A stretch of 64,000 nt of DNA from Malurus cyaneus samueli. Lineage: Eukaryota > Chordata > Aves > Passeriformes > Maluridae. Both the position numbers and the translations under genes were made by a program. Below the pieces are notes generated by a model. The model searched no databases. It was not told where the DNA came from and worked only from the letters and a program-made list of their open reading frames with translations. The DNA is taken from assembly GCA_009741485.1 (NCBI GenBank), contig CM019216.1, positions 58,268,656 to 58,332,655 on the forward strand, written 5' to 3'. Of the stretch, positions 15,601-47,000 are shown one piece after another. The stretch's first letter is position 1. The number at the start of each line of letters is the position of its first letter.

Positions 15601-17774
15601 TTATGCACTGCTGTCATCCAGAGATGTCACAGTATTAAAGGTGCTGATAATAATATGCACTTTTGGACTTGGCACCCTGTCTCTCATCACTGGGTACATA
15701 CACGCCTAATGAGCACAGTGTACTTTGGATTTCTGCAGCTCATAGAACACAGCAATGAAAGAGCAAGGATTCACTTCAATAATTTTGTTTTGTTTTGCTC
15801 TTCACGAGGATGCAGTACTATTTAAAATATTTTTTTGGAAAACAACTATTTTTAATGTGACAAAAAAAGCCAGCTTCCTACCTCCCACTTCCAGCTTCTA
15901 TTTCTTCTCTGAATCATTCTCTCTAACGATTCTTTCTCTTTCACATGCAAGAAAACAGGTTGGGGAGTGTGACAGCTGAAATTCCTTAATGAGGGAGCAG
16001 TGTAGTAAATAAGGGTGAAGCAAAGCAAAATACACAGAACAGGCTAGGGGATGTTGTTCTGGGGTATTTTTTTACTGCTCTATAAAATACTGATCCAAAA
16101 GGAAAGCAAAAAATATGTTACCTGATTTACAAGAATATGAATTAATGTAAAGAGAGAAGAAACCTTCTCAATGAGCAATTTTAAGAATTAGAATATTACC
16201 TTGGAAATAAGAAAGTTATGATCTTGTGGAAAATTCAGAAAAGATAAATAAGGCTTTGTGAGTTAAGAGTTAAAACTAATATGTTCACTTCTGTAAAACT
16301 TAAAGTTAAGGCCATTAATCTTCCGTTTTTTGTCTTTAATTTTAACTGTGGAGGGAATTTCTTTTCAGATGAACATGAAGGTAAATAGAATAAAAAGTAC
16401 CTAAAAACTAAGGGTAATAGTAGAATGTCTAAGACTGCAACAGATTTATCCTTGACTGCCCAAAATGAAGAAGTAAGAAAATTTGCAGACAACTATTCAC
16501 AGAAATAATTTACAGAAACATTTAATTAATAGTAACTGCATAAAAACATACTGTAAGCAAGTTACATAAAAGAACTCAGCCATAACATTTCAGTGGATCA
16601 CCTGGGCAGTAAGGAATTACCATACTTCCAACAGGTATATAGAACTTCTTACCTCCAACTTGCTAATTGTTTATACTTTCAAATGTTACCCTAGAGTCTT
16701 GTAGGATTTCCTAAGAATCCTATCCAGGAAAAATCCAAGGAAAGTCTAACAAAAAGTCCTGACAGCAATAATCGAGAAGCAGTAGGGATAAAAGCTTCCT
16801 TTATGGATCTTCAGAAATTCAACCGATTTCTTCCCCACAAAATCCAGAAACAGATGTGTGAACCTCAAAGAACTGGTGACTAAATCCAGGAACACTCAAG
16901 ACTACTGGGAAGATGGTCCTTTTTTGGTTTCAGAAGGGAGGGATATACAAGTGTAAATATGTTGCAGAAAACCCAAGACCTAAAGCTGCTTCAACGAATT
17001 TTTCTCAAATGTTTTTTCTCTAAGAGGTAAATGATGCATGAAAATGCATTCAAGACATGAAAGCTATGTGGAAAAAGGCAGAAAAACCTGTTTATATGTA
17101 TATTTGCTCATGTTTATGTACATATGTAATGCATAGTGAGTGTATTTTTGTTAGTCATATATCGTGTGGCCCACTTATATTTTTAATTATCTTTGTATTA
17201 CCCCATCTGGGTTTCTAGATTGGGCAAAATCTTGACTTGGCTTTTCTTTGTTGTTGTTTTCTTTGCTAAGAAAAAATTCACAGCATAACACTCCTGATTA
17301 TATGGAGAACACTAAAATTTTATGTGACATGATTAGCATTTATACTAAATTAATCAGAATGATGAAAAAATGCCATTTGACCTTGACACAAATTGCACTA
17401 GAACCCACGAGAAGACTAGCTTTTCATTAGACCAGGCATCCTTTGAAAAATCTGACATATGATGAACATGTAATTCCTTTGCCTCTGAAATTACATATAA
17501 TGAACAAAAGAAATAGAAATGGGGTTACTTCCCCATAAGAATAATACATTATGAGAAGTAATTTAGTGGCATATTCACTGGATAGCCAAAAGTGAGGGAA
17601 AAGAAAGGGAAAGATTACTTAGAATAGCTTCTCCCTCTTCGTCTTCCAGAGGGAAGCATGGTGGGAAGGTGAAATGAGATGAAATCAGGTGTACAGCTCA
17701 GCTGCTAACCTCATAAAAGGTACAGGAATAAGTATGGGGAAAGCTTTACATTCCTCTGCAGTCCTGGGATGTTG

Positions 17775-17958
17775 GTAAGCCCCAAGGCATGGTCCCCACT
17801 TGAAAGGCCCTGCTGGCATAACCATATCATTTAGAAGTGTGAAAAAAAATCCTGCCCACATCACTACACTCTGCTGTAAATGTAGGTCAAGCAGCAAAAT
17901 AGCCCATTCAGAGACTGGGCTTACAGAGTACCCGTGAAATGGTTTTGCCAATAAAAGC
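17775..17958. repeat. Old amniote interspersed repeat (MITE-like)
   Basis: The run AAGGCATGGTCCCCACTTGA, the GCTGGCATAACCATATC block and the later TGGTTTTGCCAATAAAAGC resemble an ancient palindromic DNA-transposon-derived repeat common in turtle, crocodile and bird genomes. I recognise it by memory of the consensus style, not by alignment. The 152-codon minus ORF and 127-codon plus ORF overlapping here are probably chance products. Confidence 0.4.
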
Positions 17959-18924
17959 TGTCTTTCTGCCGCGGCTCTGTGGGAAGGAGATACCACTCCT
18001 TTACAGATCTTTTCATGTTTAGGCAAACTCTGTTGAAAACTGGAAGTACCACTAACTACTTCCTGACGGTAAGCTGGGAATACCGGGCTATCTCTGATCT
18101 TAAAAAGCCCAGCTTTTACTGCCATTATCATGGCAGTTCTCAAGAGTCAGCAGTTAAAGGTCTTTTCCTACAGGACTTCAGTCTACACTGCAAACAGATA
18201 TATCCCATACCCACTTATTGCCCCATCCGCACAAGACTAATTATGTTTTGGTTGTCTCTCCTTAATCTGGTCCTAAGATTCCCTCTCTCCCCATACAGCC
18301 CTCAGAAATCAGCCTGCTGCTTTCAAAGAAGCCCCTGGAGGCCAAGTTTTCAGGGGAGGTGACCCATCTAACTTTCTTTGGCTGCCTTTGAGGCCGTTCC
18401 AACTCCAGCGCCTCCAAGCCCAGCAGAAGTCAGGAAATGAGAGCATATGGTAAATAGTTTAACTCACACTAGTTCAGCTTTCAATTCTAGCATGATTTTT
18501 CAGTGTTTTCCATCTAGTAAGATGCTTATTAACTCAAAAGGCTCTGGTTCAAGAGAACAAATGCAATGACAGTGGATAGATACCAGAGTACCAAAACTTG
18601 TTGCTAAAGAAAGTTGGGTGTGTCGTACAACTTAAATATCCTGTATCTATTCAGTTTTTTGACAGATGAAACCTGAGCTCTGAAAAAAATAATCTGTTAA
18701 GGTTCAAAGCTCCGAACGTTTAAAGCAAAACAAACATGATAACCAGTATTAGGTTTCTAAGCACATTCAGAACACTGAACTTGCCAGCAGTCATATATTT
18801 ACAGACTTGCAGCATATGCCAAATAACAGACAATGAATCCAATAATTGACAATAAAGCCTCTTGTAAGGCCACTGGCAATAGCAGCTGTTGCCTCTGTGG
18901 AGAAAATGTCTTTCAAATTATTAC

Positions 18925-18978
18925 CTCCGAATACTTCTTTTTTGTCTTGCTCCCTCTCTTACGGAGCCAGGGTGGATG
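18925..18978 (-). CDS. ADGRG6: ADGRG6 exon: SEA segment with furin-type site
   Basis: A 54-nt exon with the acceptor TTTCTTTCATAG and the donor GGAG|GTAATA, phase 2 at both ends. It encodes IHPGSVREGARQKRSIR. RQKR followed by Ser is a consensus furin site (R-x-K-R) and aligns with human KVKRS, where ADGRG6 is known to be cut in the SEA region. Cleavage would occur in the secretory pathway and leave the two parts associated or release the N-terminal one. The next exon starts T, completing AG to Ser. Confidence 0.87.
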
Positions 18979-19058: not shown

Positions 19059-19111
19059 CTGATATTGACCACATACACAGTGTAATTCCAGTTCTGGAAA
19101 GTACGGTTCAG
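19059..19111 (-). CDS. ADGRG6: ADGRG6 exon: SEA segment
   Basis: This 53-nt exon has the acceptor CTGTTTTTCAG and the donor ATCAG|GTAAAT, phase 0 in and phase 2 out. It encodes LNRTFQNWNYTVYVVNI, nearly identical to human LNSTFQNWNYTVYVVNI. Two sequons (NRT, NYT) are present, matching the human pattern. It is far too short for an ORF scan and was found by motif. It is one of the best-conserved segments in the window. Confidence 0.95.
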
Positions 19112-20426: not shown

Positions 20427-20512
20427 CCATTCTGCAACAACATCATGTACTTTCGACACCGAGTTGGGGTTGGAGCTAGAGACAGTTATAGATATCCTGT
20501 AGAAGAGCCCAC
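20427..20512 (-). CDS. ADGRG6: ADGRG6 exon: start of SEA domain
   Basis: This 86-nt exon begins after AATGGACAG and ends GAATGG|GTAAGT, phase 1 in and phase 0 out. It encodes GLFYRISITVSSS, then SVSKVHDVVAEW. Human ADGRG6 has GIIYRISVVIQ and VQSKVAEW here. An inner AG (CTTCTACAG) would throw the frame off, so the upstream AG is chosen. Its 5' side is where either the Thr/Pro exon or the mucin-like exon can be joined: both leave phase 1, so the receptor frame is kept either way. Confidence 0.88.
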
Positions 20513-23173
20513 CTGTCCATTGAAAACAGCATAATGTCAGAAACTGAGCAAATTTACCTTTTTAATAATGAGATTTAGATTCATAGTTAATATAAAACTT
20601 GTGCTGGACCTCAGATACAAGGTTACCTCACGCTCTTGTTGGCATTATGAACTCTGAAATTATTAAGCCCTGCAGGTTTGGGCCCATTCTCACTAGTCCC
20701 GTTGGTTTTGACAAGAACTCCCTCCCCACCCCTCCATATTTTCAGAGACGTTTGAAATGTGACATGGAAACTCTCAGACAACATACTTAAAAATAGTATT
20801 TTGCATATGCCTCTACTGTGGTGTGCGAATTCAAGATCACGAAAGTGTCATGAATTTAAAAAAATATTATAATTTTTTTTATAATTAGTCTGTAACCTAA
20901 GTTACAGACTGTAGTAGAAACAAGTCTGTAAACACTGAAAAATTCTGCTCCTAGGCATATTGTTATAAGCCAGAATTGAATCACTGCAGATTAGACTTTA
21001 AACATTGTGAGAGCAGACAAAGCTTGTCAATTAAAGTAACAAGGTAACGGAGGACAGAATTAGGTGTGAGAAGGAATATAGAACTCTTGTTTCCAAAGTG
21101 CAGTCTTGCTCTCAGGCCTGGCAATAGCCAGACAGTAGAAGAACCCACACAAGCTTTGCAAAACGGGCAGCTGAACAAACCGTCTTTCAGTCACAAAATG
21201 TGTAACACTTGGCTCGGTGCAATTTTATATTCAGAAAACTGTTTTCAAATGGCATTGGGTAAATATAAACTCTCTTTAAGCTCATGAGTGGGTAGGCAGC
21301 ATTACAAAATTTCACATCTAATAAATAACATCAAATAATTTCATAGTTATTTTCTGTGTTAAAAGTCTGTACTTTTCACAAGGCAATTTTTTTCATTAAG
21401 CTACTAAACATTCTGTAAGCTCTAGTTGGGTAAAATTTCCCAGGATGTGGGGGAGGTTTAAGAACTTTTGGATCAATTCACTTGCATGTATGAGCATGTG
21501 TGGCATTGCTCGGTTCTGGGCTGTTACCAAAGTTGTGGGTATGTTGATCACAGAGACATGCATATATATAATCTTATGTAAATCTTATGGAGACACTACA
21601 TAGGACAGAGCAATAATTATACAGAAATCACTCTCTGTCTTTGATTGGAAAGGAACTGCTCTATCTTTCTGAATCTAAATAAAAGACCTCTTTTCCTAAG
21701 TGGAGCAAATGTCATAATTTACAAATTCACAGGTAATTACTGAAATAAAGGCATCTGGAAAAAAATTTGAAGTCAGCATTTTTCAATTGAAGTGTGAATA
21801 CCTTGGTTACAAATCATGAAATAGGTGGAGTATTGTTCTTTCTTTTCAATATGATTAACTATATGAACATTTAGATTGTTATGAGAATTCCTCTACAATA
21901 AAACACTAAGGAAGATGGTTTATTAGCTACCTTCTTTGGTAAGGTATGATTAAATTTTAGATATTAACAGTATGGACTTCTTTTTGATTTATTGTCTTTT
22001 TTTCCTCTCTTAACTCAGGAGGCACACAAAATTGGTGCATAGTTTCATCTGAAAATGTACTTCAGTTTATTATTACTGTGATAGTTTCAAATTTAAAAAA
22101 AAAATCCAAAATTAAATCTTTGAAAGTAGAAATTTGGACTTTGGGCAAGTTGAAAACACTTGCAAGACCTGGATCTCCTTTATATGTATATTTCTCTGTA
22201 TACACACATATTCAATTTTAAATCTATAATGTATCTTTTATATGTGCCATACAGATACATACAAACAGGACGTGTGCATTCAAATAAATTTTGTGCATTC
22301 AAACAAATTCAAATACAATTATATATAATTATAGCCTTCTTTAGATAATTATGTATAGTGACAAAATCACCTTAATATAGGAATATGCAAAGTATTTTCA
22401 AAATCATACACAGTAACTACAAACTAGGCAATATCTTCAAGATCTCTCCAAGATGGTAACCCAAAGCATATTTTAATGAGGAAAAAAAACAAACCAAGAA
22501 CTAATCTACATTTTAAAATACTCTCAGGAGACTGCAGTGGCAGATAGCAAAAACTAAAAACTATTAATTCCTCTTCAAGCTAAACAGTGGAAATCCCACC
22601 TCAAAATGCTGAAAAAAAAAAGGCATAAAATTGGTGAAAAGTGGCCAAAGACCATTTGAAAAGTATGAGGAAAAATATCTGGAAAACACTTCTCCCTACA
22701 TCTGCTACCAACTATAAAAATATAATGATCAATGAAATACAAATATTTTTAAAATTCTGTTTGAAAAATTATCCAAACATTTTGTTTTGAAAAATCTTTT
22801 CTTTTTGAAAGTAAAATCCTCAAAAATATGTAAGTGAAAAACATTCATACACTCCCTAACAACAAAATGGCATTAAATTATATAAGATACATGGCAACCA
22901 ATGTATTATCCTCACAGTCTCATGAGAGCTGTCTTAGAGAAGTACACAAATATTAGAAATCACACATTCATGACATTTACTATCACTAAGATGTTACACA
23001 TTCTCTTCTACTGTAATTATAGTATTATTCCAAAACATCTTCATTTGCTAAAGGGTCCTATATCTAAAAGATGAAAGACAGCTACTTCTATTTTCGGTCT
23101 ACAAACTGAATATCTAACAGATAAGATGATCTGGTTTTTTTTTTTCTACATCTAACTTAATGGCTTGACATAC
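20513..23173 (-). other. Intron of ADGRG6 downstream of the mucin-like exon
   Basis: AT-rich intron starting at the GTATGT donor. It contains a perfect 10-bp-stem hairpin at 20887-20910 and AT-rich simple sequence near 22160-22340. On the minus strand an AATAAA-type signal lies near 22070, about 1.1 kb past the readthrough stop at 23157-23159. No exon was recognised. Confidence 0.7.
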
Positions 23174-26100
23174 TGTACTGGCCCTCAGGACGACAGAGGC
23201 AGCCCAGCTCACTGGAGGAGTCACATAAACAAGACATAAGGATGGCAGCAGAACTGAAAAGTTGATTCAGTGGTGGGTGAGAGGTGCTGTTGTGGCTTGT
23301 CCCAGATGGTAAATTGGCCAAGGAATAAACATGGGCTGAAAGTGATGACTCGTGGTATGTCCCAGAAGAAACTGGTGTTTGGCTCTGCACAAGAGAGGGA
23401 TAGATGGCTGCTGCAGCTGCTGCCAGAGTGCCTGTCAAGATGGTCTCTTTGTGCTGAGGCAAAGGCACCACATCATCCATTACTGCAGTTCTCCATGATT
23501 CCAGAACAGAAGAGAGATTTGCAACATGTCCATAACCTGCATTTTCCAAATTCAAGGCATCAGTAGTAAGGACAGTCATTTCTACTCTGTTCCTGCTAAA
23601 GGATCCATACACCTCCCCTCCTGAATTCCACTCAGAAAGCCTTGGTATGATTGTTGATGTCAGAACAGCGAAATCCCTTCTGCCTTCATTACTGTCAATG
23701 ATTTCTTGTTCTACTTCCCAGAGAGAGTATCCCGGACTGCCCATTTGATTTTCAATAGAGTTTTTGTCTAAAACAGTTAGATAACTTCTCAGTGTTTCTG
23801 TTGTTGGCAAATTTAGCTCTCCTACATCCCACTGAGGCAGCAAGCTTGGAGAAATTGTATCAAGATGGTTCTGAAAACTTTGTGGGAGTGGAGGTGTGGA
23901 ATAGCTGTTAGGAGACACACTGACTCTCAATTTCGAGTCTGATTGAAGAAGCTGTCTCAATTCCAAAGACATTGGAAGGAAGTCAGAACTCACTGAACTG
24001 ATGTTTTTTAAAAAAAAACCTGCATATTTTTGAGCTTTACTTCTTGCTTTATCACTGGTATTTGTTACAGCATCATTCTCCAGAAGATTTTGTGACTGTG
24101 GTGTTCCGTGTGTTCTTGCACTGCTTATCAAACCCTTAACTATCCAAGTAACCTGAGTCCCGGGGGTACTGAGCAAGAAAGGAGCTCGGCTATCCCTTGA
24201 AAAAGAAGGCTGGGCTCCTGAATGTGTTGGAAAGACAGAAACAGGCTGATGTCTATTGTTTAGGAAGGCCATGTCAGTTTGGTCACTTAAAACATCAGTC
24301 TGAATCTCCATGTGCATACTATCTATGGAGTCTTCAAGTACCTGATCAAAAGAAGTCACCTGTGCCCATACAGAGGACTGAGTGAGAGGTGCTTCCAGGG
24401 AAGGGAAAGGAAAATCAAAATATAATTCACTGTTGGAAGTCACAGTTAGGTTTGCAACGTTCATTGTTGACTGCAATTGTGATATTCTCCTGCCATTACT
24501 TTCTGAAATTCTCTCTGGAATAAACGAACTAAAGATTTGTGTTTCAAGCATTGATACATGATTAGAAAGAATAATTTCTCCAGCTCTGTGACCTAATAGT
24601 GTAGTGGCAGATGTTTGTTCAGAGATGCTGTCAGACTTAGCATTGGAACTAATGGACAGCAATCTCTCTATTGGGGAAGAAAGAAGTTTATTAAATGAGA
24701 GCCAAAAATTTTCTGATGGCTCCCCAGAAAACACTTGAGATGTTTCTTTCAAATGATGGGAAACAGTCCAAAAACTTGCTCTTAAAGAAGGGAAAATATC
24801 TACATATTTTGTTGGAAAAGCCAAGTGATCTGAGTCCCAGGAGTCACCAACTGGATTCATGTTCTCTGGCTCTAATATGGAAAAAGCTGACTCTTCATTT
24901 TCATTACTATCATGAAATGCATCTAAATTGTTCTCCAGTGCTCCATTTCTGAGGGTCTCACTTGGCTTTTGAAAGTATAATGAATGCTGTAAATAATGAG
25001 ACCAGTAATTACTACTAGATATAAATATGCTGTCACTTTTCAAATATGTATCAGTCAACAGCCGTTGATAAACAGGCAGAGTTGTTACAACATGTTTAAA
25101 TGTTGAGCTTGTCCAGCCTGGTCCTACCAGAAATGCTGAAAATGTTAACAGTTCTCTACTGTGTCCTTGGACTAAATTTGTCAGCTGGATGTCAGGCACA
25201 AATTTCGTGTATGTTTTTTTCATATTTTGAAAAAAAATTGTTGGGTTTGCCTGTGGAATCTCCACAGAGTTTAAATTTGTAACGTCTCCTGAGTGATGTT
25301 CCTTAATGTGCACGGATTCCCTAAACTGAAATGCACTGTTTGCTGCTAGTGTAGAAAATGTTTTCCTATCAGCATTGCCTTCTGTCATTTCCAGGTAAAA
25401 ATTTGCAGGTGACAAGTCTAGCAAATCTAACCTACGTGTCTGGAACGGTGATTTCTCATCTGCAGATGATAGAGAGAAGCTAGAAAGTGAAAGATGAACC
25501 TCTTCTTGAATGTCAGAGACGTTGAGATGATGAAACAGAGTCTCGTTCCACCAGTTCACAGGCTCCAAGACATTGCTTGTATGCATGAAATTGTTTGTGT
25601 CGCTGCTGGAGGATGAAATCCACGGAGTTTCTATTTCATGTTCATAAGAAGCGCTGCTGCTGCTAGTGGGAGAGTGGAATGCTGGCTCCGAGTCAGAATG
25701 GCTGAGCCCACTTGCCAAAGTCCATGCTAGCTCTGTATTAGGATTCCTGCTGTGAAGAACAGGAACTGCTGCATTCACAGGCGGCTCTGTAACTGCATCT
25801 GCTGCATCAGAAGTGCCATGGAATGGACTTCTAGAATAATTCAAAACATTTTCATTTGGCAACTGATTCATCACAGTATGACCTAGGTTTATATTTTCTG
25901 TAAAAGCAGACAAGGTTTCGTTGTTGGTCTCCTCAGAAGGAGCTGATGTGGACAAGGCTGGAAGGAACAAGCTGTATGGGTTTTTTCTCTCTGGGTTCTC
26001 ATCTGCTGAATTTTCACTGAAATGCAGAGGCCTTTGCTTCACTGGCCAAATAATTGGGGTTGAGATAATTCCTATCGTTTTGATCCCCTCTATCTTAGAT

Positions 26101-26194
26101 TCTTGCTGCCTCTGTGGTCGTGAATGGGAAAATTCAGGTGAATTTCTCTTCATTCTGAAGATAACTGTAGCAGGAAGTCTGAATTCCTGCAGGT
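23174..26194 (-). CDS. ADGRG6: ADGRG6 giant mucin-like exon (about 1,007 codons)
   Basis: A continuous minus-strand frame runs from an in-frame stop near 26217 to a TAA at 23157-23159. Acceptors at 26195 (TACACACAG, with a branch-point-like TTAAC about 22 nt upstream) and 26165 (CCTGCTACAG) both give phase 1. The donor ACA|GTATGT at 23174 also gives phase 1, so the exon is symmetric (3,021 or 2,991 nt). The product is rich in Ser and Thr, with SSSSAS and SSSSSD runs, a six-Ala run near the C-terminus, and at least nine N-glycosylation sequons. Cysteine is absent except for two CLC motifs in the last 20 or so residues. This is the composition of an extended, O-glycosylated stalk. It sits just upstream of the SEA domain, a classic mucin arrangement. 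Human ADGRG6, as I know it, lacks this; ADGRG4 has a comparable exon after PTX. Membership in the ADGRG6 transcript is inferred from strand, position and phase. Confidence 0.78.
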
Positions 26195-27651
26195 CTGTGT
26201 GTAGCAAGCCACATAGTTAATGGATCAAAGAAAATATATGTAACTTAACTCTCTATTCTTCGCTGTCCTTGGTCTAAAAATCAACTTACCAAGAATTGAA
26301 AATTACTCCTGTTAGCTGAGTGAAAGTTTAATTTTCTTCTACTATGAGTGAATTTGGCTTATTTTCATGGTCTTTCTACTTTTTCTTATGAGTTTCAAAA
26401 CCAGATAAACAACTTAATTGTCCAATTTTTATTCATACTAATATTAATAAGATTTAGTTCATTCTGTCATTAAAAAAATAAGAGTTAACTGCTCATGGGG
26501 AACATAGAGTGAGTGGCTCCACAAAAAGGAAGCAAACACTTGGAAGAATTTTTTTCTTCTTGCTTCTACAGCTTATTAAAACCAAACAGTTTGGATTCAG
26601 ATAAATTCTTTCTCATTATGTACTGTACTGCCTGATTGCCAGTGTACAATAAATGGTCTGCCAAGAGAAAAAAATCATCCAAGAGTTTTAAATCCTACAG
26701 TAACAACTGATGGATTGGGGAAAAAAAAAACAACAAAAAAAAAAAACCAGCCTAAAAACCAAACCACAAACTCCACCCAGATTCTAACTTATTTCTGTGA
26801 AGTACACTGAAAAAATAAATCTTAAAAAAAAAATGCATATTTAAGCTTCAAATGAAATTTGCCAAAATCTATCTCTGGTTGTGTTTAACAACCATCTTTA
26901 ACAAACTAATAAATATTTTTGCAGCACTAAATGTTAAACTGATGTTCAGTCTTTAGGAGACAGTGATATCACAGAATTTGAGAAAGCCTCAAAAGAAATC
27001 CTGGCTTTATTCCCATGCTAATAATAGGTTCATTTACTGCCTAATTTTTCCCTTAATCTTCCTAAATGAAAAGCAAACGATATCTGATACTGTCAACATT
27101 TTCCCTAGTAAAGTCTGATCCAGCTCTTCTTTAAGTCAGTGGAAAGATTTCTGTTGACTCAGTGGAAGTGGCTTTGCGCCATAGGAATGGTTCCACTTGG
27201 CTTCCCCGCCTGAGGAATGGCGAGGAACTAGTGAAGAACAGACAATCCAAGCCTGCTACCACCCTGGCTGCACAAGTGGGAGCTGCACAGAGTCTCACAT
27301 CTGCAGCCTTGAAATGCTTCAAGGGCCTGGTTCTTTTCAGACCCTCTTCAAAAATCCCTCTCCCCTCCCTTGTTCTTTGCACTGTTAAATGCAATGGGTG
27401 ACACAAGGTTAGTCCCTTTCCTAGAAGAGCCAGGTAAACACGATACAAATAAACCCCAGGTTTGGTTCTGCTCTCATTTGCACCATTCTGACACCATGGT
27501 CCAGAGGTTTAGTCCTGATTTATCCGGTGTAAATGAGATCAGAACTCAGACATGACCCTTGGCATTATGATGGTAGGAAAAACACACCTTAAAATACAAC
27601 AAATTTTCTTTAGACACAGTACAAGGAAAAATGTAACACAGGATTTCTTAC
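26195..27651 (-). other. Intron between the Thr/Pro exon and the mucin-like exon
   Basis: It holds an A-rich run at about 26717-26747 and an old inverted-repeat element at 27465-27545. The ORFs around 27130-27450 lie on both strands and match nothing I know. Confidence 0.7.
27465..27545. repeat. Short inverted-repeat element (old MITE)
   Basis: An 81-bp segment has 20-bp inverted ends: 27465-27484 and the reverse complement of 27526-27545 agree at 18 of 20 positions. The terminal GGTGTAAATGAGATCAGAAC resembles an old amniote palindromic repeat of the CAGTGTAAAT type. It lies about 100 bp from the Thr/Pro exon. Confidence 0.55.
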
Positions 27652-27735
27652 CATTGTTTGGCTTATCGTTTCTATTAGTATCGGGCATGTTAGTGGTGAC
27701 AGTGGGTGGTGTAGGAGTAGTAGCATTTACAGTAG
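27652..27735 (-). CDS. ADGRG6: ADGRG6 Thr/Pro-rich exon (counterpart of alternatively spliced human exon)
   Basis: This 84-nt exon lies between CTTTATTACCAG and AATG|GTAAGA, phase 1 at both ends. It encodes ATVNATTPTPPTVTTNMP, then DTNRNDKPNN. Human ADGRG6 has ATVNSPSTTPPTVTTNMPVTNR at this place, in an exon of the same 28-codon size that is alternatively spliced and controls ectodomain conformation. Symmetric phase means it can be skipped without a frame change. One sequon (NAT) is present. It directly precedes the giant mucin-like exon, so this linker is where both optional segments enter. Confidence 0.92.
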
Positions 27736-30678: not shown

Positions 30679-30747
30679 CTTGGCAAAGGCTTCCTAGGTT
30701 TGCACAACTGGTTGGTTCAATTGAAGAAGAAGGAATTAGATATGAGC
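30679..30747 (-). CDS. ADGRG6: ADGRG6 linker exon after PTX
   Basis: A 69-nt exon with the acceptor TTTTAAAG and the donor CAAG|GTAAGA, phase 1 at both ends. With the G left by the PTX exon it reads GSYLIPSSSIEP, then SCANLGSLCQ. Human ADGRG6 has [23 protein letters not shown]. The two cysteines are conserved. The exon was found by motif and phase. Confidence 0.93.
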
Positions 30748-34964: not shown

Positions 34965-35585
34965 CACAACTCAAATTGTTTTCTGCTTTCAGCGCTGAAG
35001 TTGGAATACTCCAGAATTCATTTTCCCAGTCCACAATGTTTCCTTTCACATCGCAGCTGAGGTTGGCCAGCGTTTGCGCATTCATGGTGAAATTCCAGAG
35101 GCGGAAGTTGTAAATGTCCCCATTTAGAGAGCTCACTTCATTGCTGTTAGAGCCCAGCACCAGCCTCCCATTTCCAGGGATCACTTTGTCAAAGACCTCC
35201 GGACAGGACACTGTGTGATAGATGCTTTTGGCATATATACCTACAGTGCCCGAGAGGCTGTCCCAAACAACACATAGCTGCTGAAAGGTTCCAGTGAAAA
35301 ACTCTGCATTTCGGGGCAATGCATTCTTGAGGATGCACTGTGTGCCCGAGATGGACAGAAAATGGCCTTTTGTGGTCTTCCCAAAGCTGAGCAGTTCTGT
35401 CAACAATGCATCAGTGTAGGAGAAAACCTTCCAGTCGTCGTTGTCATCGCTGTTGCCCTTGGTGGCTTCAAAGCACAGAGTAAACTGCCTAAGCTCTGGC
35501 ACTGAGACAGCCTCTGCCACAGACACAGCATCGAGGTCAGGAACTTGGGGAATGATGACTTTCTGATTCCTCAGAGACACGGCAA
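34965..35585 (-). CDS. ADGRG6: ADGRG6 exon: pentraxin-like (PTX) domain
   Basis: A 621-nt exon, phase 1 at both ends, with the acceptor TTGGTTCTAG and the donor TGTG|GTGAGT. It encodes the whole PTX domain in about 207 residues. It opens [13 protein letters not shown], then [25 protein letters not shown] (the pentraxin core with conserved Cys and Trp), [13 protein letters not shown], and [14 protein letters not shown]. It ends at NNLSC plus a split Gly. Human ADGRG6 matches over the full length. The domain mediates extracellular interactions such as with laminin-211 in Schwann-cell studies. The exon is conserved with no break. Confidence 0.97.
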
Positions 35586-41243: not shown

Positions 41244-41585
41244 TTCGTACATAGCTGGCATTAAAACCTTTCTTTTGGATACTGAAGTCGCTTTTAAATG
41301 ACACAATCATTTCATTTCCGGTAGAATTATAGGATAATCCTTTGGCAGTGATGCCACAAAGGTTCATTGGGCTTTCTCCATTGTCTAAAGTCAGTGAATC
41401 ATAAATGCAGCCTGGAGCTTCTTCAATGTCAAAATCGATAAATGTTAGCTGTATGATATATCCATGAGGTGCTCGGATGATCCATCTGCACGCTTGGCTG
41501 TTGGGATAGTCACTGGGGAAGCACGGAGAAGTGAAAACTCCAGAGGGGTCAGTTAGCACGGTCCTACAGTCATAGCATCCGTGAG
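41244..41585 (-). CDS. ADGRG6: ADGRG6 exon: CUB domain
   Basis: A 342-nt exon, phase 1 at both ends, with the acceptor TTTTTATTGTCAG and the donor CGAA|GTAAGT. It encodes one complete CUB domain in 114 residues: [76 protein letters not shown] and FNASYVR. The CUB cysteines and the acidic DFDIEE and YDSLTLDN residues that form the calcium site in this family are present. It aligns closely with human ADGRG6. The CUB domain binds partners such as collagen IV in published work. The exon must follow a signal-peptide exon ending in phase 1, which was not found. Upstream ORF extension to 41772 is intron. Confidence 0.97.
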
Positions 41586-44072: not shown

Positions 44073-47000
44073 CAGCCCCTAAATTTAGATAGGAAAATAA
44101 GTGCTCAAAACTTTGCATACACAGAAGAAACAGATTTGGTAAGCAAAATAGTTGTTTTTTTATTTAAGTGGGTTGGCTCCATTTTGGTATAGTAGCTATT
44201 CTGTCCATGACTGCAATTTGAAGGAGAAATATCCTGTTTTCATGCAAATGTCCACAGTAGTAAGTAAAAAGAAAAGAAAACAAACAACAAAACTATATAT
44301 AAACAGAATGGTTTTGAATGGAACGTTTTGCACAGCTTCTCATGAGACAGTTATTTTCTATAAACATCACCTATTTTACTCATTAAAGAGAAAAATTGCT
44401 GTGGCAACCTTAGGCTGTCAGCCAAAGCTGACAGATATTTTGCAATCCCATTGGCCCAGAGTAGTTCTGAACTGTGGAGAATGAATACTTGTTGCAATAC
44501 ACACCACAAACATTTCTAGAAGCAATCCAAGATATTTTATTGATTTTAATGGGAACAAATTTAGCGATGATATTCCTGGTTAGGAGCCCCATATAGCCAG
44601 AATCTGCCTGTCAAGTAATTTTTACCACCATAGACCACAGGAAAGTCACTCTCTAAGTATATTTTATAAAATAAAGGCCTTTCTCTTTCTCCCTCTCTAT
44701 TCTTTCCCAAACCAAAATAAACACCTGCTTCAGATAGTGCAATCAAGGACTTAATTTCAACGTTTCCTAAATTGAAGGCTTCACTGAACGATTCATTTGT
44801 TTCCATCATGAGAATACACTGGAGTATGGTTTTTCATGTCTTAATCACTTTTTTTTTCCCTGCATTGTACCCATACCTCCTATAATAAAGAATATTTGAG
44901 TATTTGGTGTGACACTTCAACACTACACTAAAAAGGGAAATTAATAAATTCCTCTGGAGCAAGTTAGAGCTTTCACCCGGTTATCTAAGTGATTCAAAAA
45001 TGTTAATTGACTTCAGAAGTGGAATAAACTGCAAGGAAAAGGCTTTTTCCTATCATGGCACGGAAATAATGGGCAAAAATGGAAAAACTTGCCACAGATT
45101 TTGGGTTCCTCATCAAAGAAATGAAACTACTGATTTTCCTTAACTTTCCTACTTAGTATTTGTACAGGGTTTTATATGTGCAAAGCACACTACCAATGAC
45201 TTTAAACTGTAGTTGGGAGAGCGCTCTGACAATGTGGCCCACTGCAGAGAAACCAAAAATGAGTATTACTGCCCAGTGGAAAATTTTGGTCAAAGCAACT
45301 TGACCACTTTTAGTAGCAACTTATCAGTAAAGGCACGGATAGGACTCCATTCTCGTGGTTGCCGATTTTCCAAACCATGAAACCACTTCCTCTCTTCTAG
45401 GAGTTTCCTGTCTGTCTTACATATATATATATACCTTTTAGCTTCTGTGAAGTATAAAGTACCCTATTTTAGTCTTTCCTACACCATGCTGAATCATCTG
45501 AAGTCTGCCCTAAAACGAAGGGGCAGTAAAAATGAAACAGTATGTGACTCAGTAATGATTGCACCATACAAACAGACATGGGCACATGCAAGCCTCATAG
45601 CCTGTGAAACAAGATTAATTGCCCAGCTTGTTCTGTTCACTGATTTTGTTTCTTTAGAGTCCCAGCACTGGATTCTACCATTTGCACTCATGAAGACTAC
45701 TGTAAGTACTGGAATACACAATTTGAAAGCGACTTCAATGAGTCATTTGTGGGCAGTTGAAGCCACAGGCAGACACAGAGCTACAATGCCTAACTGTAGA
45801 TTTGGGAAGGAAACATCCTTTATAAAATCTTATCACATACATTCGTACTTCTCTTTTTAATTTTTTTTTCGTAAATGACTAACACATTCCAGTACTTGCC
45901 TCCAAAATCTAAGCTAATATTAATATTTTCCTCTAGTTTCTCACACTCCTCTACCTCTCTCTATCGTCATCATTTACCTCTAAAACCTGTCTTATGTCCT
46001 ATTATACTCTGTACTGGGGAGAGTTGAATTAACACTAACAGTGTTTTGTTAAAATACATTAAAAGATTGTCTCATAACAGCAGAACAGAATGCTGCTGGA
46101 TTTCATTTTGGCATAAAAATTAAATCTACCTCTTTCTGTGGACGATACAACTTTTGCATGAAAATATCCTGAAATAAATCCATGTAGCTCTGGAGCTGAA
46201 TTTTCACAAAGCAAACCAAAACATTTTATGTTAACTCTAGCCATATTCAAGTGAACAACAAAACCTCCCCTGCCTGATAGAATTAGGCCAATTCTAAGCC
46301 ACAGAAAATCATAGCTAGATTACCCACCATTTTAGACATAAAAAAAAGCAGTACAGAATTAATTATAATTTGCTTTCTTGTTGACAGCTGAGACCATTTA
46401 AGCACTTTACATATATTTAGGAAGGCAGCATTTACATGGAGGGTCATTTCAACTAAGTAAAAGAGTACAGGCAGGTGACACAGCAGAGGCACTTGGATGT
46501 TTGTGGTGATGTCCAAAATAGATGAGAAACTTTACAATCATTTCCTGTCACGGCATGAATAAAGCACCTAGTTTGATGGACATTAGGTGGAAAACAGTTT
46601 TTCTTTATAATAAGCAAGTAATTGTTCAGGTTTTTTTTTTTTCTATTTCAAGCATATCATAACACAAATATGGCCAAACATTAGGTTAGATGTATTTATG
46701 ACTGCAAATAGATGGGTGAATGAGGTCAGCAATGGGCACACCTGCAGACAAGCACAAGGAAGGGCCAAACCACCAAGATGTGGGTGGGCTGGAATGGCTA
46801 CAGAACAAACAAACCCATGTTATTCCAGTGAGACACAAACACCAAACCCAAAACAGCTATCCTATGGGATAGGCTTGGACAGTAGCTTATCTTCACCTTA
46901 AAAAACCATTTTGAACCTAAAGGCCATCTGTACATCTACAGAAATGTCCATATGCAAAGTCTGGGCGTATTAATTGCAAACAACTTCACCATCATTCACT

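Follow-up and report, generated by a model that had tools for sequence, protein, structure and literature searches.

A conserved giant exon at the ADGRG6 hinge of sauropsids, with a furin-type motif and a weak splice donor

ADGRG6 (GPR126) is a much-studied adhesion GPCR with roles in myelination, the inner ear and the placenta. Its CUB-PTX part binds collagen IV, and its closest PTX paralogue is ADGRG4. The hinge of the ADGRG6 ectodomain is the site of a small alternative exon (exon 6), and insertion of 23-28 residues at this point is described in PMC6954182 as changing both the shape and the basal signalling of the receptor. In that account, with the zebrafish exon 6 (23 aa) added, 21% of the particles are open-like and occur alongside closed ones; the human exon-6 isoforms differ in size in solution. 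Collagen VI is reported in PMC10252604 to bind the fragment 446-807, which starts at the SEA furin site, and not the fragment 31-348; laminin-211 is said there to bind at a place like that of collagen VI.

In sauropsids, the ADGRG6 hinge, between a disulfide-loop linker and the SEA domain, includes a conserved exon whose product, of about 1,007 residues, has no predicted fold. The exon is already present in public gene models and, hence, is known to databases; no description of it was found in searches of the open-licence literature, and ADGRG6 is not named in the main text of PMC7038749, a study of squamate exons that are long and evolve fast. New here, as read from sequence, are a furin-type motif, a weak yet conserved terminal donor, an internal donor and soluble-form readings of the gene. 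The reading preferred, at a probability of about one half, is that a regulated hinge exon separates the CUB-PTX head from the remainder of the receptor, and that furin cleavage within the exon may set the head free.

Position and make-up of the exon

The window is the whole stretch of Malurus cyaneus samueli DNA that was analysed (64,000 nt), and all positions refer to it. The exons of the gene match P0036, a complete bird ADGRG6 protein that matches the solved ADGRG6 structures 21du and 6v55 and has CUB, PTX, SEA_Gpr126, GPS and 7tm_2 all over the Pfam cut-off, in this order on one gene. Mapped exon by exon along about 96 kb (window plus flanks), residues 1-1442 of the 1,500 of P0036 are placed, whereas no match for the final 58 was found in that span. 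The exon order is signal, CUB, PTX, two-Cys linker, exon 6, giant exon and three SEA exons; the signal exon lies near 76.9 kb, outside the window, and the remaining ectodomain, GPS and 7TM exons lie towards and beyond the window start. Mapped with P0036 on the minus strand are the CUB exon (41244..41585), the PTX (pentraxin) exon (34965..35585), exon 5 with the two-Cys linker GSYLIPSSSIEPTSCANLGSLCQ (30679..30747), and the first (GLFYRIS..., 20427..20512), second (19059..19111) and third (18925..18978) SEA exons, the third of which includes the known SEA furin site RQKR. Exon 6 is a Thr/Pro exon at 27652..27735 (minus strand) of 84 nt, or 28 codons, the same length as the alternative exon 6 of human (28 aa; PMC6954182).

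The giant exon (23174..26194, minus strand; 3,021 nt, phase 1 at both ends) directly follows exon 6 and precedes the first SEA exon. It lies inside a stop-to-stop frame of 1,019 codons (23157-26216, minus strand), and its sequence has 0 stops in this frame versus 62 and 75 in the other two. With the slash marking the splice boundary, the acceptor reads ...acacag/ACCTG and the donor TACA/gtatgt. Exon 6 ends AACAATG/gtaag and the first SEA exon starts cag/GTGGGCTC; thus, the junctions of the giant exon are in phase 1 on both sides. The product is composed of 15.1% Ser, 7.5% Thr and 6.2% Pro with 9 sequons, and its cysteines are restricted to residues 988, 990, 998 and 1000 of 1,006, a C-terminal CLC...CLC cluster (23193..23231, minus strand) that comprises the only cysteines of the exon in Malurus. 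The corresponding region of the homologues has 0-9 cysteines (P0053 set aside). The initial annotation, made from the Malurus letters alone without database searches, had described an open frame of about 3 kb on the gene strand, located inside ADGRG6 between the Thr/Pro exon and SEA, with an AG acceptor and a GTATGT donor in phase 1 that fit the neighbouring exons, and with a Ser/Thr-rich product of at least nine sequons that is free of cysteine until its last 20 or so residues; the exon mapping, phase, splice sites and residue counts given above agree with each part of this description.

Phase, splice sites and the 10 of 54 homologous models that join the region to SEA identify the giant frame as an ADGRG6 exon and not a separate gene; CUB is also present in 7 of these 10. 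Two models (P0002 of Haemorhous and P0040 of Zootoca) make the exon region a protein of its own. Elsewhere in the window, open frames at 17685-18146 (minus strand) and 45381-45860 (plus strand) have 153 and 159 codons, a size range also met in simulated sequence, and no Pfam match over the cut-off; no RNA families were found in the 64-kb window.

Distribution, age and origin of the open frame

Protein searches returned 54 homologues of the exon, including 30 with a species name, all sauropsid, and 24 without. The named carriers are birds (from emu, duck and fowl to songbirds), turtles (Pelodiscus and Caretta) and lizards (Zootoca and Pogona). No mammal, amphibian or fish is among the 30 named homologues from these searches, which cover predicted proteins that share exact five-residue words and would miss unannotated exons elsewhere. 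The first search scored the 7,989 candidates with the most shared words and gave identities to the window of 77% (songbirds), 35% (Pelodiscus) and 31% (Zootoca). The third, which used words from the most conserved stretch (77 residues) of the turtle protein and lengths of about 801-2,550, matched 25 of 28 candidates, with every named match sauropsid. At least 900 residues of the region are present in 49 of the 55 sequences (window included); the P0053 piece also holds the rest of the receptor. In the Pogona vitticeps model (P0044), the Thr-rich exon-6 type segment occurs twice in tandem, TTNMPDTNRTDKQTN...TTNMTDTNRTDKQTN, and the hinge of this lizard seems to be lengthened in yet another way.

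The exon is old and probably sauropsid-wide, with an age on the protein-search evidence of at least the sauropsid ancestor, and gain on the sauropsid stem would need fewer events than repeated loss elsewhere. The view that the exon is absent from the known mammalian gene is consistent with its occurrence in no named mammalian protein found. Its description as a bird feature is correct for birds but too narrow, as turtles (Pelodiscus, Caretta) and squamates (Zootoca, Pogona) share it. Of the two histories first suggested, ancestral with loss in mammals or gained independently, loss is the less economical option, since no named amphibian or fish protein with the exon came up in the protein searches either.

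A chance frame, an annotation artefact or the remnant of a mobile element would fit the result that no Pfam family is over the cut-off in the exon, where the sole match is a sub-threshold dDENN (17.6 bits versus a cut-off of 26.8), yet frame, phase and start motif are kept across three sauropsid groups, the translated exon is single-copy in the Malurus genome (the only other match has an E of 0.69), and both chance and neutral survival are ruled out by simulation. In 60 Markov-1 sequences of 64 kb that kept the dinucleotide make-up of the window, the longest open stretch was 224 codons (mean 147) compared to 1,019 here; thus, the exon is not a product of chance, and the chance openness of the frame, (1-p)^1006, is about 4e-25. 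These values bear out the early judgement that a chance frame of this length is very unlikely. When neutral drift was simulated to 81% amino-acid identity, the mean gain was 8.8 stops and none of the 200 copies remained open; 48 homologues with at least 900 residues of the region read without a stop, including some at 31-35% identity. This explanation is highly improbable, and the giant frame is very probably a true ADGRG6 exon under selection. An origin from repeats or mobile elements was rejected on the single copy of the translated exon and on the absence of tandem repeats within it, the short repeats of the exon being two direct pairs of 20-24 nt and one inverted pair.

Furin-type motif, unfolded chain and weak donor

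The furin-type motif R-M-K-R occupies exon residues 13-16 (26145..26156, minus strand). By homologue comparison, R-x-K-R is found in all 32 sequences that cover the site (27 RMKR, 4 RVKR and 1 RKKR), a count that leaves out 23 of the 55 sequences (20 begin inside or after the motif and 3 are without the anchor used). An invariant R-x-K-R with a free second residue has the look of a furin site, and the motif is the conserved R-x-K/R-R of a furin substrate in a stretch that AlphaFold2 predicts to be unfolded. The SEA furin site is kept in all five bird and turtle proteins checked, as well as in the window. That furin cuts at the exon motif is rather probable; that such a cut would release the CUB-PTX head is rated a little short of an even chance. 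The highest-conservation block of the exon is GIISTPIIWPVKQRP (residues 41-55; 26028..26072, minus strand), with a mean conservation of 0.95 across 49 sequences. Over the first 50 residues, Malurus shares 52-94% identity with duck, emu, P0034, two turtles and two lizards, the values for P0034 and Zootoca being depressed by their late start; later segments of 50 residues are mostly 10-50% identical outside birds.

AlphaFold2 assigns the exon chain (21 sequences) a mean pLDDT of 26.4, with 1,010 of 1,011 residues below 50. The PTX exon, a control by the same route (16 sequences), has a mean of 57.5 and core blocks of up to 88, the control itself being of modest quality and its rows more alike than those of the exon. 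A PDB profile search of the exon gave no match up to E 10, and a hidden folded domain was ruled out by the Pfam, PDB profile and AlphaFold2 results. The product is predicted to be an unfolded, probably glycosylated chain. Tandem repeats are usual, although not obligatory, in mucin domains. The exon is a poor match to a classical mucin: its S+T+P content is 29% overall and reaches 48% only in residues 151-200, and in homologues with at least 900 residues it is 27-31%, with 6-21 sequons (P0053 left out). The label 'mucin-like' from the initial annotation is, thus, partly right: the chain is Ser-rich, predicted to be unfolded and carries sequons, but has a modest S+T+P content and no tandem repeats. 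With 2.5 angstrom per residue, the pitch quoted for mucins in PMC10687090, a fully extended chain of 1,007 residues would measure about 0.25 micrometre, and the real span should be below this value given 29% S+T+P.

The ADGRG4 locus of Malurus (30 kb with no N; L025-L027, G000:C1:1728001-1758000) has a single long Ser/Thr/Pro-rich frame between PTX and 7TM, of 250 codons and 43% S+T+P. This frame is far shorter than the human stalk described in PMC10687090, and the pairing of a short ADGRG4 frame with a long ADGRG6 stalk is a possible trade-off. A tblastn of the bird and turtle exon against the Malurus ADGRG4 locus gave a best E of 0.53, to the PTX exon. Descent from the ADGRG4 stalk was ruled out for Malurus by this absence of sequence similarity, and the comparison with that stalk, raised at the outset, is reduced to a parallel of position.

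A plain uncut spacer, in which a longer receptor lets the CUB-PTX head reach farther or feel shear as proposed for ADGRG4 (PMC10687090), would account for a Ser-rich chain with no predicted fold and with 6-21 sequons in the near-complete homologues. This reading is unlikely in view of the R-x-K-R on the head side of every covering sequence, which is unexpected for a load-bearing tether, the low S+T+P content without tandem repeats, and an N-terminal block far more conserved than a spacer needs. It is also the reading of the initial annotation, whose simple extensible stalk fits the unfolded, Ser-rich chain but takes no account of the conserved furin-type motif, of the weak terminal donor and the internal one, or of models that give a soluble form, all of which enter the reading of a regulated, cleavable hinge exon.

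The terminal donor GTATGT (23168..23173, minus strand) scores -0.03 bits with a U1 duplex of -2.9 kcal, and ACA/GTATGT is the weakest of the ten donors scored in the gene. The internal donor CAC/GTAGGT (GTAGGT at 25430..25435, minus strand, phase 1), which would retain 253 exon codons, scores 1.76 bits, and values for the other eight run from 1.9 to 8.7 bits; the scoring, from base frequencies and U1 pairing, covers these ten donors. The 21-sequence alignment A1 has 34 invariant columns, two of which (S1007 and M1008) overlie the donor A/GTATG. This Ser-Met is kept in 35 of the 36 sequences that read past the donor, P0043 being the exception. The terminal donor is, thus, conserved yet weak, which suggests that its use is regulated and would explain the variety of gene models.

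The models, which where joined to SEA are database predictions, include: (i) ten with the exact terminal donor to SEA junction (P0028, P0033, P0041, P0046-P0048, P0050-P0052 and P0054; among them Caretta, Athene, Bubo, Falco tinnunculus, Corvus and Callipepla), of which P0028 and P0033 are without part of the exon, (ii) four, P0036-P0039, with the same internal-donor junction FQKS/GLFYRIS, (iii) P0053, with an odd junction, (iv) 35, including P0019, that run past the donor without SEA, and (v) three that stop before or at the exon end. P0049 (Indicator indicator) joins SEA elsewhere, from a point some 90 residues short of the exon end, which hints either at additional internal donors or at an error in the model. 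Six named ADGRG6 isoforms that run past the donor (Camarhynchus, Guaruba, Oxyura, Numida, Pelodiscus and Pogona) include CUB together with a PTX-type domain and are without a membrane part. In the window, the soluble reading ends after SMSSH at an in-frame TAA (23157..23159, minus strand), as read from the open frame and the homologue tails. A stop after the same fifth codon past the donor is found in 27 of 36 sequences; P0026 and P0030 stop slightly earlier, and emu P0027, P0032, P0040 (Zootoca), P0042, P0043, P0044 (Pogona) and P0045 read on beyond this position. The tail past the donor (23157-23174, SMSSH plus stop) is nearly alike in most birds, Pelodiscus and P0034, which may reflect either donor-side regulation or a coding tail. 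The tails of the 24 unnamed homologues may be open frames called from genomic DNA.

The six soluble-type isoforms, the very weak donor and the shared fifth-codon stop are the grounds for reading the exon mainly as an alternative last exon, which yields a secreted CUB-PTX-stalk protein, with the whole-exon membrane receptors as prediction artefacts. By contrast, the Ser-Met over the donor persists although much of the exon is only 10-50% identical outside birds, the exon length preserves phase, ten models splice the exon to SEA, seven sequences do not keep the stop, and the tails of the unnamed sequences may derive from genomic frames. Nor do the poly(A)-like hexamers of the downstream intron (21919..22477, minus strand; ATTAAA from 22477 and AATAAA from 22071, 21993 and 21924, with a fifth, ATTAAA, from 20566) help this reading, as the 5 seen compare to 5.8 expected and at least 5 occurred in 211 of 300 simulations; poly(A) signals were, thus, dropped as support for a soluble form. 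A role mainly as a last exon is improbable on this balance, and whole-exon membrane receptors are likely to be made.

Proposed hinge mechanism and comparison with described systems

In the preferred reading, the hinge exon is regulated through its weak donor and would operate as follows. Skipping of the exon would give the ordinary receptor, while its inclusion would set the CUB-PTX head apart from SEA-HormR-GAIN-7TM by a long spacer, glycosylated and unfolded. The ectodomain would then lose its closed form and the head would be uncoupled; with open-like particles already seen for the 23-residue zebrafish exon 6 (PMC6954182), about 1,000 unfolded residues would uncouple the head. Furin may cut the R-x-K-R at the exon start, in an unfolded stretch of a protein of the secreted pathway, and, with the motif outside any fold, the cut would let the head leave. 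The region that binds collagen VI (and laminin-211) would remain on the cell. Where the weak donor is unused, the transcript would end in the intron and encode a soluble CUB-PTX-stalk protein, and use of the internal donor would give a 253-residue version. The exon would, in this way, set the tethering of the head as none, short, long, cut or free.

Certain points go against the hinge reading. More models end past the terminal donor than splice there (35 versus 10), the added furin site may change little because SEA has a furin site of its own, and the head might stay bound to HormR after the cut. An extended form of the proposal is tentative and rather doubtful: that sauropsids evolved a splice-controlled release hinge in which cleavage by furin turns the CUB-PTX head into a soluble matrix-binding factor, and in which the new N-terminus of the remaining receptor shows the deeply conserved GIISTPIIWPVKQRP as a ligand-binding or self-regulating module. 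If the release hinge is true, ADGRG6 has a second, lineage-specific way of being switched.

Sauropsids may have extended, cleaved or secreted forms of the receptor that are not seen among the annotated mammalian versions, and domain diagrams of ADGRG6 are incomplete for sauropsids. ADGRG6 results from chick or zebra finch need an isoform check. In birds, turtles and lizards, the exon is some 36-44 times longer than the 23-28 residue insertion at the same spot and offers a natural experiment on the degree of coupling between head and receptor that ADGRG6 needs.

Compared to described systems, the ADGRG6 exon resembles the ADGRG4 (GPR112) stalk (PMC10687090) as a long unfolded region between PTX and SEA; unlike the 250-codon ADGRG4 frame of Malurus with its 43% S+T+P, it has 29%, and it is without detectable sequence similarity to the ADGRG4 locus of Malurus. 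The soluble N-terminal isoforms of a human aGPCR survey (PMC11039983) are alike in that a premature intron stop gives a secreted ectodomain, whereas the putative secreted form here would end behind a giant exon that is lineage-specific and has a weak yet conserved donor. Cleavage of GPR126 by furin in SEA (PMC6954182) also uses an R-x-K-R in the ectodomain. The exon motif is instead upstream of SEA and outside any predicted fold; thus, no domain would hold the two pieces together after a cut. The closest parallel in position is the alternative exon 6 of ADGRG6/GPR126 (+ss/-ss; PMC6954182), which is at the same hinge, is Ser/Thr-rich and is likewise expected to open the ectodomain. The giant exon differs from this 23-28 residue insertion in that it is a separate exon of about 1,007 residues directly after exon 6, has a putative optional use, occurs so far only in sauropsids, and adds a furin-type motif and a soluble-end reading.
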